Below, one piece after another: positions 2,860-20,278 of a stretch of 21,911 bases of DNA. Position numbers and translations under genes: made by a program. The notes below the pieces were generated by a model. It saw only the letters and a list, made by a program, of their open reading frames with translations. It was not told the origin of the DNA and ran no database searches. Source of the stretch: a virus. Where the stretch lies: positions 1 to 21,911 of IMG/VR virus record IMGVR_UViG_3300012000_000140; one strand, 5' to 3'. How positions within the stretch are numbered: position 1 is the stretch's first letter; every line of letters starts with the position of its first letter.

Positions 2860-3603
2860 TTATAGGAATTTGACCAATTCAGCCCATGTCTTAGGTCCGA
2901 TGATGCCGTTTGAGTCCACTACGTCGTGATTGTCCTGAAATGCGATAACTGCCTTCTTTGTCGCTGGGCCGTAATCGCCGTCTGCAGCCAATCCTAGAGC
3001 TTTCTGTACAATCTTGACAGATTCACCCTTAGCACCTGGCTTAATCTGTCCAGGAAACGCTGGAACCTCTGGTGCAGGTACATCTACATTTACTTCGTTA
3101 CCCTTGTAGTTAGGACGACCCCAACCAACAATGCTTACAAGAACCTTCTTCTTGTTTGGCTTGTATGCACGAATCTGCTCACATACTTCGCCACCATTGC
3201 GTTGGTCACCCTTCTTCTTACCAGAGGTGTTTCCTTCAATAGTAAGCACAACTCCATCGGAGTCAATACCTGTGCAGATACCTACGTGAGAGATACGGTC
3301 TACGCCATCTCCTGGAAAGTCAAAGTACAAAACGTCTCCTGGTTGTGGTGACTGACCGCAATCTGCGTCAAACCATGTGCCCATCTTCTTAAATGCTGCT
3401 GCTCCTGCAACTGTAGAGACAGTGTTAGGAACCTTTACACCTGCCTGATGAGCGCACCACATAACGAAAGAACCACACCAAGCAAGATAATTAGCTTTTG
3501 TAAACGCACCGTACTTTGTTTCATTGTCTTTAGGCCCTTCTATCGTTCCAACTTCTTTTTTAGCAATTTCAATAATTGCAGCTACTGTACCTTGTTCAGC
3601 CAT
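2860..3603 (-). CDS. Endolysin: CHAP amidase/peptidase plus peptidoglycan-binding domain
   Basis: A 247-residue cell-wall hydrolase. Residues about 10-165 form a CHAP (Cys/His) domain with Cys43 in AWCGSFV, His106 in ISHVGIC and Glu123 in IEGN as likely catalytic residues. A Pro-rich linker (about 172-187) leads to a peptidoglycan_binding_1 domain at about 190-246, with GESVKIVQKALGL, DGDYGPATKKAVIAFQ and a final GPKTWAELVKFL. CHAP domains cut the amide or peptide bonds of peptidoglycan, and the C-terminal domain anchors to the wall. There is no signal peptide, so release would need the holin. Its ATG overlaps the stop of the HNH gene (TAATG), and a terminator follows. Confidence 0.92.
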   Translation of the reverse strand: MAEQGTVAAIIEIAKKEVGTIEGPKDNETKYGAFTKANYLAWCGSFVMWCAHQAGVKVPNTVSTVAGAAAFKKMGTWFDADCGQSPQPGDVLYFDFPGDGVDRISHVGICTGIDSDGVVLTIEGNTSGKKKGDQRNGGEVCEQIRAYKPNKKKVLVSIVGWGRPNYKGNEVNVDVPAPEVPAFPGQIKPGAKGESVKIVQKALGLAADGDYGPATKKAVIAFQDNHDVVDSNGIIGPKTWAELVKFL

Positions 3604-7060: not shown

Positions 7061-7348
7061 CTAGGCTTTTTTGAGAACCCGAAACCCTTTAGTACTAATG
7101 TGGATATCTGAAGACATTTCGTGTTTTTTATTAGTTGCTTTAACTTCTGTGTGGTCTACTGGTTCAACAATAAAGACCTGTGGTTTACCGCCTTTAGTGG
7201 AACGTTCCGCTGCCCAACCTTTTGCAAAAGCCCTGTCTGTGGTAGCCCAAGCAACTCCCCCTTTCTTAGGTAGCACAATGTCTCCCTTTTTAAAGGGATG
7301 AGTACTTCCGTGAAACAAAACTTTAGAGAGGTGGTCTGAGGCTGCCAT
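7061..7348 (-). CDS. Arr-like ADP-ribosyltransferase-fold protein 3, LSKVLF-tagged
   Basis: A 95-residue protein. The tag MAASDHLSKVLF runs straight into HGSTHPFKKGDIVLP, then AWATTDRAFAKGWA and PQVFIVEPVDHTEV, the Arr-like motif order. His13 would be the NAD-contacting residue. The C-terminus STKGFRVLKKA matches STKGFTVLGE of protein 1. Its first seven codons are identical at DNA level to those of the GNAT gene at 8124, so the tag has moved as DNA. The start is coupled to the upstream stop (TAATG). The substrate is unknown, and it is short for an ADP-ribosyltransferase. Confidence 0.7.
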   Translation of the reverse strand: MAASDHLSKVLFHGSTHPFKKGDIVLPKKGGVAWATTDRAFAKGWAAERSTKGGKPQVFIVEPVDHTEVKATNKKHEMSSDIHISTKGFRVLKKA

Positions 7349-7761
7349 TAGATTCGTCTTCCGCCATCTCGTCCATTTTTAACATAAGACTCTTTGCTAG
7401 GGTCAAACTCTGGAAAACTTCTTTTGATAGCTGCGTGGTTATCGGGTTGACCAAGAACAGATGCAACTTGGTTCTTTACTTTGAAAGCGCTGCCAGCAAA
7501 AATAGTCTTATCTTGTCCGTCTTTAAAGTGGCCTATAGGCTCTACTTCGTAAACATTGCCGTGGTGTACTGGATACTCTCCACCTTCGTTTGCTCCAAAG
7601 CCAGTGCGTGCTCTTTCATGAGCATGAGCAAGGGCATAGTTCAAATCGCTAGTAGCCCATGCTGTGCCATATTGGGTTCTTGGCTTAATGACATCCCCAG
7701 GCTTGAGGGTCTCAATAGTCCCATGGAACAATTGGTGGGATAGGTTGTCTGAGGCTGCCAT
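7348..7761 (-). CDS. Arr-like ADP-ribosyltransferase-fold protein 4, LSHQLF-tagged
   Basis: The largest of the four paralogues at 137 residues, close to Arr itself. The tag MAASDNLSHQLF is followed by HGTIETLKPGDVIKP (His13), AWATSDLNYALAHAHERA (motif two, about 34-51) and GNVYEVEPIGHFKDGQD (about 68-84), which corresponds to Arr's YVVEPTGPFEDDP. It has an extra C-terminal tail ending in a basic GRDGGRRI. Of the four it is the best candidate for an active NAD-dependent transferase. Its ATG directly follows the GNAT stop. Arr proteins modify rifampin, but here a host macromolecule is the more likely target. Confidence 0.75.
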   Translation of the reverse strand: MAASDNLSHQLFHGTIETLKPGDVIKPRTQYGTAWATSDLNYALAHAHERARTGFGANEGGEYPVHHGNVYEVEPIGHFKDGQDKTIFAGSAFKVKNQVASVLGQPDNHAAIKRSFPEFDPSKESYVKNGRDGGRRI

Positions 7762-11094: not shown

Positions 11095-12450
11095 ATGTCA
11101 TACGCAATACTCGTAAGTGGTCAAGTAAGTGCAACAAAAACAAAACAAATTATTATCGCAAGTATGAACAACTCTCATCACGCATGGACTCGTGTAACAG
11201 ACGGCGGGCGTGGTGAAAGTAATGCATGGGCAGTTGATAACTATGCAGACTTAATTGCATACGCAAACTTCAATGAACACATTATTGGTGAAGTGTTATC
11301 AACACCTTTGTCTAGTGTTGATGTAGAAGCAATTACTAATAATGAAATACCTAATGTGTTAATACAAAAACTAACTAAGCAGTATCGCTTACGCCATACA
11401 CAAGTTGATAACACACGCACTATGAAAGATGTTATTGACGAAGTAGATAAGTTAATTAACACAGACTCACAGTTATTAAGTAAGTATCGCTCAGACGGCA
11501 GAAGCGATAAAAACGCAACAGTTAAAACAACTATCACCGAAGGAAAAAATCCTATGCAAACAATTAACCCAATCGCTAATGAACCTATTGTTATTAACAG
11601 GGTCGTTCGTGATGAAGCAACAAGCACACTTGCGTTTGTACCTTCTTTAACAAGTGAAGCAGTACGCACTTATGTACCACGCAAGTTTGCTGGTGGTTTA
11701 ACAGAAGAGCAGATTTACACTTACGCACTTAAATCTAAAAAGAATGTATCGGTACAAGGTCATGCAGGTACAGGCAAAACAACTTCATTCATGACATTCT
11801 CCGCAAAGCATGGTTTGGAGTTTGGTTCAATGAGTTGTAATGCAGGTGTTGAACCTTCACAATTCTTTGGTCGTTATGTACCTAACGCAGAAGGCAAGTT
11901 GGAATGGCGTGACGGATTATTTACACACTTCTTTCGTCATGGTGGCGTACTTGTAATTGACGAAGCAAACTTTCTTCCACAGAAAATTGCTTCTGTATTG
12001 CATGGCGCACTTGACGATAGAAGAGTATTAACTTTGCTTGACCATGACGGCGAAGTTATTCATGCACACGAAAACTTACTTATCGCTATGTGTTGGAATG
12101 ACGGATACAAAGGTACAAGTCGTTTCAATGAAGCGTTTTCAGATAGGTTTTGGGTCAAACTTAATTTTGAGTATGACACCGAAATTGAAAAGAAGTTTAT
12201 TCCGTCTGCAACTTTGCTTGAACTTGCTAAGTCAATGCGTGCAGACACAATCGCAGGTGTTTATGAAACACCTGTATCAACTCGTTTGCTAAAGCAGTTT
12301 GTTGATTTAACACAGAACCTTAACTACGACTTTGCAGTTGAGAACTTTGTTAATAACTTCCGAGATGATGAACGCAATAGCGTGAAACTTCTTTTGGACT
12401 CACAACGCCACAACTTAGAACTAGAACTTACTGGAAAGGTGAGTGAATAA
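11095..12450 (+). CDS. AAA+ ATPase of the MoxR/CobS type
   Basis: A 451-residue protein. Residues about 1-145 are an unrecognised N-terminal domain, and a linker with TEGKNPMQT follows. The AAA+ core has Walker A GHAGTGKT (222-229), Walker B VLVIDE (285-290), a sensor-1-like Asn in AMCWNDGYKG and a likely arginine finger in AFSDRF (about 351). A helical C-terminal domain completes it. This fits the MoxR/CobS branch, whose members remodel proteins together with VWA partners; such a partner is the next gene, overlapping by 8 nt. Despite the name it need not act in cobalamin synthesis. A second start is possible at the internal ATG 11554 behind GAAGGA. Confidence 0.88.
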   Translation: MSYAILVSGQVSATKTKQIIIASMNNSHHAWTRVTDGGRGESNAWAVDNYADLIAYANFNEHIIGEVLSTPLSSVDVEAITNNEIPNVLIQKLTKQYRLRHTQVDNTRTMKDVIDEVDKLINTDSQLLSKYRSDGRSDKNATVKTTITEGKNPMQTINPIANEPIVINRVVRDEATSTLAFVPSLTSEAVRTYVPRKFAGGLTEEQIYTYALKSKKNVSVQGHAGTGKTTSFMTFSAKHGLEFGSMSCNAGVEPSQFFGRYVPNAEGKLEWRDGLFTHFFRHGGVLVIDEANFLPQKIASVLHGALDDRRVLTLLDHDGEVIHAHENLLIAMCWNDGYKGTSRFNEAFSDRFWVKLNFEYDTEIEKKFIPSATLLELAKSMRADTIAGVYETPVSTRLLKQFVDLTQNLNYDFAVENFVNNFRDDERNSVKLLLDSQRHNLELELTGKVSE

Positions 12451-14455
12451 CTTGTTAGCGAACCCCTTTATCATTGAAGATGAAGAAGATACACAAAAGA
12501 AAGAAACACTAAAGCGCAATCGTGTTGGTGCGCTTGCTAGTGTGTTTTCTAAAGCACTTTCTGTTTTAACAACTCACAAAATTAGTGTCAATGTTGTTGA
12601 TAGAAAAGAGATGAACGCACCTGCTTGGTCAAGCACAAAAGAAGTTTGGCTTAACCTTGCACAAATCAAAGATGATTTTACTGCTCGCAGTATTACTTCA
12701 CTTAATGGTTTGTCATTCCATGAGTTAGGACACTTGCGATACACACCACGCAACGGAAGCAATCTTGTTCAGAAGATTAAAGAAGAACAAGAACAGAATG
12801 AATTGTGGGAAGCGTTTAACTGTTTAGAAGATAGTCGCATAGAGTTTCTTCTTACAGGTTGGTTGCCTTCTATCAAGTCATGGCTTACTGCAACAATGTG
12901 TGATTACTTGCTTAGTGATGATGAAGCAATTAGTCGTGCGTTTCCACTTGTTTATGGTCGCAAGTATTTACCTATTGAATTGCGACAACTTGCAAGTGAC
13001 AAGTTTATTAAACCTGAGATACAACAAGAACTTGCAGATGTAATTGACGAATACAACTCACTTGTATTTACTGGTAATGATGAATACACAGAGCAAGTGT
13101 TTAATCTTATTAAGAAGTTTAGTGAACTTCTTAAAGAGTTACCTTCAATTACGCAAGAAGTACCTAATGGTGAAGGTGAAGGCGGTACAACAATCATTCG
13201 TGTTCGTATTAAGAGTCCACATGGACACGAAGGTAGACCGACACAAGGTTATGAAAGCAGTAGCAATCGCCCTGCTAGTGCAAGAGAACAAGAACGCAAT
13301 CGTCAAAGTGCAAAGCGTAATGTTGTTGAAGTTGTTATAGATACAACACCAAAAGAAGAAAAGAAAGAAAGTGTGTCCGAAGGAAAAAATCCTAGCGACA
13401 CACAATCACAACAACAATCACAATCACAATCAGAGTCAAAAGATAATTCTTTTGGTGATGTAAGTGATGATGAGTTTGGTGACTTGTTTGATGATAGCGA
13501 CCTTGATGATTTTCAATCACCCAATGACACACCTGCACAAAGCAAGAAGGCTGGTAATACAAAAGGTGAAACAGGTACTAATCAACAAGTAACTAGCACA
13601 CTCAATGACATTCTTTCTAATGTTATTGACTCACTATCAAAAGACATAAACTCAATCGCAAATCAAATCGGTGTTAATCCCGAACTTGACGGCGGTAATG
13701 CCAAGACACCTGACAAAGCAAATTACAATGAAGTGCGTATTCCTGATGAACTCGCAATTCTTTCTAAGCAGTTTGGTGTTGAACTAGAACGCTTGCGAGC
13801 AGATTACGACCCTGCATGGCTCAATGGTGAACGAAGTGGCAAACTCAATGTAACTCGTTACTTGCGTGGTGATGAGTTAGAAACTGTGTTTGATGAATGG
13901 ACAGAAGGGCGTGATGATGTTACTTCTATTGAAGCAGTTATTCTTTTAGATAGAAGTGGCTCAATGAGTGGCAACAACGCAGACAACGCTTACAAATCTA
14001 TGTGGGCGATTAAAAAAGCGTTAGAGCGTGTAGAAGCACGCACAACTGTTGTGACTTTTGATTACGGCACTTATCTTCTTTATGGTGCTGATGAAAAAGC
14101 AGGTACAACTATTCGTGATAGTGGTGCGAGTGGTGGTACTAATCCTGAGAAAGCAATCTTGTACGCAAAGAATGTTCTTGCTAATAGTGACAAAGCAATC
14201 AAACTTCTTTTCATGATTACAGACGGCGCATGGGATACAACAACAGGTGAACAAGCAGTTAAGGACATGAAGAGTGCTGGCGTATTAACTTGCCAAGCAC
14301 TTATTACAGGTCGTGACCAAGTAAGTGCAGAAACACTAAATCAGTATCGTCATGGGTTTGAGTTAATGACTTCAATGAAGTCTGCAAAAGACATTCTCAT
14401 TCTCGGAAAAGATTTAGTGCGACTTGCGGTTGGTCGCAATCTACTTAGTGCATAA
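12443..14455 (+). CDS. CobT-like VWA protein with an HEXXH metallopeptidase-like domain
   Basis: A 670-residue protein. Residues about 30-230 form a helical domain with HELGH (93-97) and EDSRIE (129-134), the layout of a zinc metallopeptidase (HEXXH plus a distant Glu). An acidic, Gln/Ser-rich disordered linker spans about 240-425. The CobT-like segment (SGKLNVTRYLRGDELETVFD) and a VWA domain (about 495-660) follow, with a complete MIDAS: DRSGS (503-507), Thr566 and Asp594 in MITDG. It is the expected partner of the AAA+ ATPase. It may unfold, cut or assemble a phage or host target. The start is GTG 12443 or TTG 12452, both just after AAAGG. Confidence 0.85.
   Translation: MNNLLANPFIIEDEEDTQKKETLKRNRVGALASVFSKALSVLTTHKISVNVVDRKEMNAPAWSSTKEVWLNLAQIKDDFTARSITSLNGLSFHELGHLRYTPRNGSNLVQKIKEEQEQNELWEAFNCLEDSRIEFLLTGWLPSIKSWLTATMCDYLLSDDEAISRAFPLVYGRKYLPIELRQLASDKFIKPEIQQELADVIDEYNSLVFTGNDEYTEQVFNLIKKFSELLKELPSITQEVPNGEGEGGTTIIRVRIKSPHGHEGRPTQGYESSSNRPASAREQERNRQSAKRNVVEVVIDTTPKEEKKESVSEGKNPSDTQSQQQSQSQSESKDNSFGDVSDDEFGDLFDDSDLDDFQSPNDTPAQSKKAGNTKGETGTNQQVTSTLNDILSNVIDSLSKDINSIANQIGVNPELDGGNAKTPDKANYNEVRIPDELAILSKQFGVELERLRADYDPAWLNGERSGKLNVTRYLRGDELETVFDEWTEGRDDVTSIEAVILLDRSGSMSGNNADNAYKSMWAIKKALERVEARTTVVTFDYGTYLLYGADEKAGTTIRDSGASGGTNPEKAILYAKNVLANSDKAIKLLFMITDGAWDTTTGEQAVKDMKSAGVLTCQALITGRDQVSAETLNQYRHGFELMTSMKSAKDILILGKDLVRLAVGRNLLSA
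13397..13437 (+). repeat. CAATCA-type microsatellite inside the VWA gene
   Basis: Tandem CAATCA/CAACAA units encode the Gln/Ser-rich linker (QSQQQSQSQSES). They are probably prone to length change by slippage, altering linker length without affecting the two domains. Confidence 0.6.
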
Positions 14456-14467
14456 AGAAGAATGACA

Positions 14468-14494
14468 TGGGGGCAATCAAATCGGTTGCCCCCA
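14468..14494 (+). terminator. GC-rich hairpin after the VWA gene
   Basis: A 9-bp stem (TGGGGGCAA with TTGCCCCCA) has a 9-nt loop. No T-run follows, so it may be a weak terminator, a processing site or a 3'-end stabiliser that sets the AAA+/VWA transcript apart from the genes downstream. Confidence 0.5.
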
Positions 14495-14522: not shown

Positions 14523-15110
14523 ATGAAACTATCTGAAATCAAATTGAATGGCGAGTATGCAATCGTTCCTTCATGGACATACAACAATAAATCTGCAAGA
14601 GATGTAGATACTGTTAGAGAGAATGATGTTGTTAAAGCAACAGTTATCTCACTTGATAAGTATGACTATGAACCTTCACAACGAAAGGGTGACCCTTCTT
14701 CTTTTAGAAAAGCAGATGCAGGTAATCGCTCAATCGGAATTATTGTTAAAGCAACTGATACCAATGGCAAAGAGTATTACTGGACTTCACGCCTTGCAGA
14801 TGTTGTTGCAGAGTGGAGTGTGCTTGAACCTAAGTGGAACTCACAGAAGTCTAAAGAACAAGAAGAACGCAGAGCGCACGAAGAACGCCAACGCAAAGAA
14901 CAAGAGTTGCGTAAGCAAGTAGAAGAAGAAGTAGAACGCTCACGCAATTCTATTATCACAAGTGCTAAAGAACTCTTAGGTGATAACACAACAGTAGAAG
15001 TATCTACTAAAGGTTACGGAATAGATTACAAAGCGACAGTTGAAATCTCACTCGCAGAGTTTGAGCGACTAATGGAACTCTCTTATGAAGGGAAGGCAAT
15101 CAACGCATGA
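14523..15110 (+). CDS. Unknown protein with coiled coil (195 aa)
   Basis: A 195-residue protein. Residues 1-95 look like a compact beta-rich domain (LNGEYAIVPSWTYNN, ENDVVKATVISLDKYDYEP, SIGIIVKATD). Residues about 100-140 are a highly charged coiled coil (EQEERRAHEERQRKEQELRK). A small C-terminal alpha/beta part ends SLAEFERLMELSYEG. The N-terminal pattern is one I recall from actinophage hypothetical proteins, function unknown. It has its own repeated leader, and its stop overlaps the next start (ATGA). Confidence 0.7.
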   Translation: MKLSEIKLNGEYAIVPSWTYNNKSARDVDTVRENDVVKATVISLDKYDYEPSQRKGDPSSFRKADAGNRSIGIIVKATDTNGKEYYWTSRLADVVAEWSVLEPKWNSQKSKEQEERRAHEERQRKEQELRKQVEEEVERSRNSIITSAKELLGDNTTVEVSTKGYGIDYKATVEISLAEFERLMELSYEGKAINA

Positions 15111-19511: not shown

Positions 19512-19698
19512 AGAGAAAACTGCGTATCCCACTAAAGATAAAGCAGAAAGAGCCATGACACTTATTTGGAAAAATCATTGGCTCAACAACACTAGGAAAA
19601 AGCCATGTGCTAGTTACAAATGCAACATCTGTGGCAAGTGGCACTTAACAAGCCAAGCACGAAGGAGTAAAGCAAAAACAAATGGCACAAAGAACTAA
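19501..19698 (+). CDS. Small zinc-finger protein with GKWHLTS motif (65 aa)
   Basis: A 65-residue protein: MKCEEKTAYPTKDKAERAMT, then YKCNICGKWHLTSQARRSKA. The C-x2-C-x3-WHLTS phrase after an Arg/Lys region is a recurrent small phage zinc-finger type that I have seen in many actinophages; its job is not known. AAAAGGGTAAAA precedes the ATG. The longer in-frame reading from 19396 overlaps the zinc-ribbon gene and is less likely. Its tail overlaps the HNH start by 17 nt. Confidence 0.75.
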   Translation: MKCEEKTAYPTKDKAERAMTLIWKNHWLNNTRKKPCASYKCNICGKWHLTSQARRSKAKTNGTKN

Positions 19699-20278
19699 AA
19701 CTTGTATCGGTTGCTACAACGCACTACCAATTAGCAAGTTTAATAAGTATCCGCAAGGTACATACGGCAGACGAGCAAGGTGTAAGTCATGCCAAGCAAT
19801 ACAACGCAAAGGCTCAGCAGATAGAACTGCTAAGCGATTAGCACTAGAGTTACAAGGCAAAAGACAATGCAGTAAGTGTGGAAAAAAGAAAGCCTTATCT
19901 TCTTTTCAACTTGCCAAGCGACAAGGGTGTAAGCCAAGTCGTAGTGGTATCTGCAAACCTTGTGAGTCACAAAGCAAAAGAACTTATCACTTGACTAAAA
20001 ATCAAGAGATTAGATTATTTATTTACAACTACAAAAAGACTCACCCATGCAAAGTGTGTGGAGAAACTGATGTAGAAGTGCTGGAGTTTGACCATGCACA
20101 CTCAAAGAAGTTTGACATTAGCAACGGCATAGCCAAAGGTGTAAGTATGCACCTGCTAAAGAAAGAACTTGCCAAGTGTGTAGTGTTATGCTCAAATCAT
20201 CACCGCAAGAAAACGCACGCTGAACGCAACACATGGTTGCACAGACTTGCTAAAGAAGATACAAAAGTTAATAGATAG
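19682..20278 (+). CDS. HNH endonuclease with two N-terminal zinc ribbons
   Basis: A 198-residue protein. Two treble-cleft-like ribbons come first: TKTCIGCYNALPISKF ... RCKSC (residues about 6-38) and RQCSKCGKKKALSSFQ ... CKPC (about 61-96). The HNH domain follows with CKVCG, LEFDHAHSKKFDIS (catalytic His) and KCVVLCSNHHRKKTHAE. It is probably a metal-dependent DNA nicking or cutting enzyme, with the ribbons helping site recognition. Its HNH part resembles the stand-alone protein at 3999-4373. It is the last right-arm gene before a strong terminator. It may be a homing endonuclease or a packaging/recombination nuclease. Confidence 0.88.
   Translation: MAQRTKTCIGCYNALPISKFNKYPQGTYGRRARCKSCQAIQRKGSADRTAKRLALELQGKRQCSKCGKKKALSSFQLAKRQGCKPSRSGICKPCESQSKRTYHLTKNQEIRLFIYNYKKTHPCKVCGETDVEVLEFDHAHSKKFDISNGIAKGVSMHLLKKELAKCVVLCSNHHRKKTHAERNTWLHRLAKEDTKVNR

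Follow-up and report, generated by a model that had tools for sequence, protein, structure and literature searches.

The AAA+ ATPase gene and its VWA partner

The stretch of DNA analyzed here is the viral record IMGVR_UViG_3300012000_000140 of IMG/VR (21,911 nucleotides, positions 1 to 21,911; hereafter the window), and our subject is a pair of plus-strand genes within it that encode an AAA+ ATPase and a protein with a zincin-like domain and a VWA domain. The original prediction, made from the letters of the DNA, described an AAA+ gene overlapping a gene for a protein with the motifs HELGH and EDSRIE, a long acidic linker and a metal ion-dependent adhesion site (MIDAS), and we confirmed both open reading frames. 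The ATPase gene (11095-12450) starts with ATG and specifies 451 residues. Its product was placed in the MoxR/NorQ/CobS group by a match to AAA_5 (E 1.2e-17), a match to phrog_249 (E 7e-41; a family named 'porphyrin biosynthesis'), alignment and a tree. A lineage-specific N-domain covers approximately residues 1-150 and the AAA core approximately residues 200-445; the latter contains the Walker A motif GHAGTGKT (residues 222-229, 11758-11781) and the Walker B motif VLVIDE (residues 285-290, 11947-11964), and G222, G225, K228, T229 and E290 are invariant in the ATPase alignment.

The partner gene (12443-14455) starts with GTG, shares 8 bp with the ATPase gene (12443-12450) and encodes a protein of 670 residues. 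An N-terminal gluzincin-like domain (residues 8-236, 12464-13150) carries HELGH (residues 93-97, 12719-12733), a predicted zinc-binding and catalytic motif, and EDSRIE (residues 129-134, 12827-12844), a predicted glutamate helix with the third ligand. An acidic and Gln-rich flexible linker (13148-13597) follows, which varies in the alignment and in which the predicted local distance difference test (pLDDT) score falls below 50 at residues 308-377. At the C-terminus lies a Midasin/NorD-like VWA domain (13730-14452), matched by VWA_2 and VWA over the Pfam cut-offs, with its MIDAS made up of DRSGS (D503, S505 and S507; 13949-13963) and completed by T566 (14138-14140) and D594 (14222-14224). The Pfam family CobT_C also matches the protein, but below its cut-off. 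The two genes therefore have the makeup of a MoxR AAA+/VWA pair, namely an ATPase of AAA_5 type whose Walker A and Walker B motifs are intact, and an adjoining VWA gene with a complete MIDAS.

The two published readings of the viral pair conflict. Iyer et al. 2021 (PMC7824862) described a MoxR and vWA-metallopeptidase pair in jumbo phages (group 2.2) and proposed a role in virion assembly, whereas Liu et al. 2021 (PMC8651126) identified the viral pair as cobST, a cobaltochelatase, and called the 'peptidase' label mistaken; the Hardycor1 authors (PMC7911831) noted an AAA/vWA pair without a peptidase. Compared by published description (ASV44729.1/ASV44728.2), the pair of Iyer et al. resembles that of the window in joining a MoxR-type ATPase gene to a vWA protein with an N-terminal metallopeptidase domain, and differs from it in that theirs is from jumbo phages whereas ours is from an actinophage-like family whose ATPase has an additional N-domain. 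The viral cobST of Liu et al. and the phage proteins annotated as 'CobT-like' (in P-HM2, Gordonia, Rhizobium, ICP2 and CRP-810) are, by name and arrangement, probably members of the same broad family, although they are annotated as cobaltochelatase and the active-site evidence presented here points to a metallopeptidase. (In the open literature, to which the search was confined, we found no paper that sets the active site of mobile CobT against that of cellular CobT; subscription journals lay outside this scope.) An AAA+/VWA-metallopeptidase pair is thus already described, and what is new here is the evidence of a peptidase site in mobile 'CobT' proteins that cellular CobT lacks.

Conservation and predicted fold of the zincin-like domain

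In a first alignment of 15 homologues, which included annotated Gordonia phages and Brevibacterium phage Cantare and extended down to 23% identity, H93, E94, H97 and the LED-RIE residues were kept in all. Across 58 aligned divergent relatives, H93, E94, H97, E129, D130, R132, I133, E134, D503, S505, S507 and D594 were invariant, and the MIDAS residue T566 was kept in 57 of the 58. Because HExxH arises in only 0.2% of 5000 shuffles of the VWA protein and is invariant across the 58 homologues, HELGH is not there by chance. Note that one scan of the collection had been searched with HELxH and LEDxRIE patterns, and its 100% conservation is therefore circular; for this reason conservation was retested with patterns taken from the ATPase only, which contain nothing of the partner. 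This search recovered a VWA partner at 77 of 79 loci, and all 77 partners (4 of them cut by contig ends) retained both HExxH and ED.R[IM]E. The partner was not seen at the other two ATPase-found loci (L188 and L197), where it may be lost to a contig edge or have diverged. A family in which homologues without HEXXH are the norm, which the original prediction had named as evidence against itself, is thus the opposite of what we found. A scan of genome contigs added one relative, on a contig of a metagenome-assembled genome. (The count of 167 loci related to the VWA protein by blastp includes redundant contigs.)

The same succession of HExxH and an ED-R-IE-like helix motif recurs in distant phage and plasmid relatives. 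It reads HETLH..LEDVRIE in the Microcystis phage Mae-Yong1326-1, HEALH..LEESRIE in actinophage DSL-LC01, HETGH..LEELRCE in actinophage GMA2, HEVGH..TEDIRIE in the 'peptidase' of cyanophage P-HM2, HEVGH..IEDTMIE in Rhizobium phage N1_15 and HEAGH..LEDIWLE in roseophage CRP-810; on plasmids it reads HEVAH..LEDVFIE in an SSU5-type phage-plasmid and HETGH..VEDIRME in a Rhodanobacter plasmid. Vibrio phage ICP2 keeps the first motif (HECYH) with a degenerate second one. CobS-like ATPases are numerous in phages, as a single ATPase query returned 505 phage records, mostly of cyanophages. On plasmids we also observed a CobS-like AAA ATPase by ssb, bet and exo, with no VWA partner within the fetched stretch (L111, IncC plasmid pAPEC1990_61), and a DUF3150 gene accompanying the pair on the Rhodanobacter plasmid (L112); on a P. 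veronii plasmid (L114) the pair is accompanied by a protein judged similar by eye. A DUF3150-type protein is a possible third component of the pair on plasmids.

A fold search with the whole protein returned VWA matches only, and so the N-terminal domain was folded and searched by itself. AlphaFold modelled it with confidence (pLDDT 92.1; predicted template modelling score 0.87) as a long helix and three short strands that lead to the HExxH helix, after which come a short helix and the ED-R-IE helix. The model has the gluzincin pattern, in which HExxH lies in one helix (residues 81-100) and a conserved Glu in a following helix (residues 120-140). When the 50 best solved-structure matches of the domain were re-aligned with VIA, nearly all were zincins, with Z at most 6.2; the zincins listed include Ste24, an M48-like peptidase, selecase, jannalysin, abylysin, DPP III, BlaR1, IRAP, LTA4H, ArdC and Wss1, and the leading rows are M48 peptidases and minigluzincins. 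It is the agreement among these weak matches, rather than any one score, that argues for a zincin-like N-domain. The original prediction had also staked itself on the placement of the His residues, and in the predicted fold each motif has its own helix within a confidently modelled domain whose structural neighbours are almost all zincins. The likeness to the M48 gluzincins (Ste24) and the minigluzincins (selecase, jannalysin and abylysin) thus lies in the HExxH helix and the conserved-Glu helix after it, whereas the phage protein differs from them in being fused to a VWA domain and paired with an AAA+ motor, in matching at Z of up to 6.2 only, and in having no match at the level of sequence: a sequence-only search of the PDB returned VWA relatives and no peptidase relative, and 15 members of the family, searched at E 1, did not match the Pfam family PF13203 (DUF2201_N metallopeptidase with DUF2201 VWA).

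The VWA domain, for its part, has its best matches in the MIDAS domain of Rea1/Midasin (Z 21.3) and in the VWA domain of NorD (Z 17.7), both of which operate with AAA+ rings. The likeness to the NorQ-NorD, RavA-ViaA and Midasin systems is one of VWA fold, and we know of no zincin domain reported in the partners of these ATPases.

Relationship to cellular cobaltochelatase

Liu et al. 2021 (PMC8651126) proposed, as do many phage annotations, that phage CobS and CobT join host CobN and raise cobalamin synthesis, and several of our findings are in keeping with a viral cobaltochelatase. Full-length comparison of the window family with cellular CobT by hhalign gave a collinear match over 531 columns (probability 97.4, E 3.8e-11); the window family matched other mobile CobT proteins at E 4e-32, and mobile matched cellular CobT at E 2.4e-71. 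The order of N-domain, acidic linker and VWA domain beside an AAA+ gene is likewise common to the window and to cellular CobS/CobT. Moreover, in the ATPase tree the true, cellular CobS proteins form one clade (100/99) that is sister to the CRP-810 ATPase (99/96). The N-domain by itself scores lower (E 4.8e-7 for mobile against cellular CobT), and hhalign of this domain alone between the window family and cellular CobT gave no match (E 0.47); the homology came to light with profiles of the full-length proteins and by way of intermediate families.

The active site is where the mobile and cellular proteins part. We compared six cellular CobTs from plasmid records of Alpha- and Betaproteobacteria (they were found with an approximate CobT fragment as query, and the conclusions are drawn from the fetched records). 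HExxH is lacking in the N-domains of all six, and the aligned place reads DSMAL, DAFAL, DASAL or DAAAL, that is, DxxAL; the later E..R.E helix is still present. The window protein does not share the DxxAL pattern, as it and nearly all of its mobile relatives have HExxH. Nor did the chelatase models or a search for CobN favor a cobaltochelatase: the CobT equivalog model TIGR01651 matched nothing in the window at E 10 and was not among the models listed for the VWA protein, the CobS equivalog model TIGR01650 scored 18.3 bits against a cut-off of 558.55, and CobN was found in 0 of 30 phage and plasmid records (G000 included; the window is a fragment). On these grounds we rejected cobaltochelatase as the identity of the pair, in agreement with the original prediction, which had judged it unlikely, and we regard a chelatase role as very improbable despite the shared ancestry.

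Mapped onto a tree built from the VWA region, the presence or absence of HExxH takes three changes, most simply losses in Stenotrophomonas phage BUCTxx99, in the P. veronii plasmid and in cellular CobT. Because this tree and that of the ATPase are rooted at the midpoint and contain long branches, the direction of the change can be suggested rather than read off directly. With that qualification, cellular CobT looks like a catalytically dead relative of a putative phage metallopeptidase family.

Genomic context and a model for the pair

The conserved core of the neighbourhood is the pair itself (168 loci with the ATPase, 167 with the VWA protein), the next best gene being found at 61 loci. That gene, at 14523-15110 on the plus strand, is the one most often retained after the pair; it encodes 195 residues with a coiled-coil-like C-terminal half, and its product is a candidate third partner or client. 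Among annotated relatives, the pair is near genes for DnaB helicase, primase and SSB in Gordonia phages, near DnaE in Cantare, a Rhizobium phage, a Stenotrophomonas phage and an SSU5-type plasmid, near gp46/gp45/gp44 in P-HM2, and near a primase/helicase in ICP2. This context bears on the proposal of Iyer et al. (PMC7824862), argued by analogy with the Acidianus two-tailed virus, that the jumbo-phage pair is a virion-assembly machine that folds and cleaves structural proteins. In the annotated relatives we fetched, the pair is near replication, recombination or nucleotide genes, not structural genes, and there is no structural gene among the window genes scanned. We therefore consider a role in virion assembly improbable for this family, although it would involve the same machine with a different client and so does not exclude the reading that we prefer.

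We think it probable, on the strength of sequence comparison and modelling, that the pair is a two-part metallopeptidase and remodelling machine, driven by the AAA+ ATPase and docked through the VWA domain, rather than a chelatase. The invariant motifs, the partner test and the zincin-like predicted domain together lend support in substance to the ATP-driven, VWA-guided metallopeptidase of the original prediction. Weighing against this assignment are the absence of a significant Foldseek match for the N-domain (all E-values above 1), the weakness of each of its fold scores (Z up to 6.2), the small annotated sample from which the replication-gene context is drawn, and altered HExxH sites in Stenotrophomonas phage BUCTxx99 (DREVST) and the P. 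veronii plasmid (HEIICH), so that in some members a role without catalysis can be enough. The two altered homologues, and the fact that MoxR-VWA pairs serve as chaperones elsewhere, would suit a pure chaperone acting on a complex of the phage or the host, its zincin domain being a metal-stabilised binding module without proteolysis. A structural role of that kind would not need the catalytic Glu of HExxH, but this residue is invariant in all 58 aligned relatives and in all 77 partners found through the ATPase, and we hold the chaperone explanation to be unlikely.

If the pair is a metallopeptidase machine, then, from what is known of its family, the ATPase would form a MoxR-type ring, and, by comparison with NorQ-NorD and Midasin, the VWA domain of the partner would dock onto this ring through its MIDAS. 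The flexible acidic linker would keep the N-terminal gluzincin-like domain, with its presumed zinc ion, close to the ring, and cleavage of a client may be coupled to ATP-driven remodelling or gated by the ring. Because the pair is often near replication and recombination genes in annotated relatives, phage or host DNA-bound proteins are a first guess at the client, and a weak one.

Downstream of the VWA gene there is a stable RNA hairpin (14468-14494, plus strand; -20.7 kcal/mol, z -4.8) that has no U-tract and gave no match to an intrinsic terminator. Thus, of the claim that the module has its own leader and a hairpin after it, the hairpin is real, while a terminator role for it gained no support; nor did a leader beyond a possible ribosome-binding site, as no plus-strand promoter-like site was found upstream of the pair. 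The linkers of the two genes contain an 18-bp exact repeat, CCGAAGGAAAAAATCCTA, at 11537-11554 and 13377-13394 (expected 0.00 by shuffles). A matching variant pair, CCGARGGGACAAA, occupies the same places in L003 and L011, and the second copy is partial in L002. In the ATPase gene the repeat is followed by an in-frame ATG near 11554, from which a short ATPase could be translated with this copy serving as an internal ribosome-binding site.

Elsewhere in the window, a minus-strand gene at 2245-2799 matches phrog_1040 ('peptidase HslV family', E 1e-31) and, weakly, a Pfam proteasome family, and an endolysin gene lies at 2860-3603 on the same strand. The product of 7348-7761 (minus strand) has a weak match, below cut-off, to the rifampin ADP-ribosyltransferase Arr-ms (E 1.5e-4) and possibly has an ADP-ribosyltransferase fold. 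At the right end are plus-strand genes for an HNH endonuclease-like protein (19682-20278) and a tyrosine-type phage integrase (20358-21659).

A broader proposal, which we put forward tentatively, is that the mobile 'CobST' of hundreds of phage and plasmid records could be an AAA+/VWA/zincin protease whose targets in infection are replication or protein-DNA complexes, with cobaltochelatase CobST as its domesticated, catalytically dead offshoot. Among the 'auxiliary metabolic' functions of phages, CobS/CobT is often cited; if these pairs are metallopeptidase machines, then the claim that they allow phages to raise host B12 synthesis would lose its basis, and an unstudied, widespread phage protease would become tractable as a target. 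That the site is intact in mobile proteins and dead in cellular CobT would, in addition, provide a testable origin for part of cobaltochelatase.

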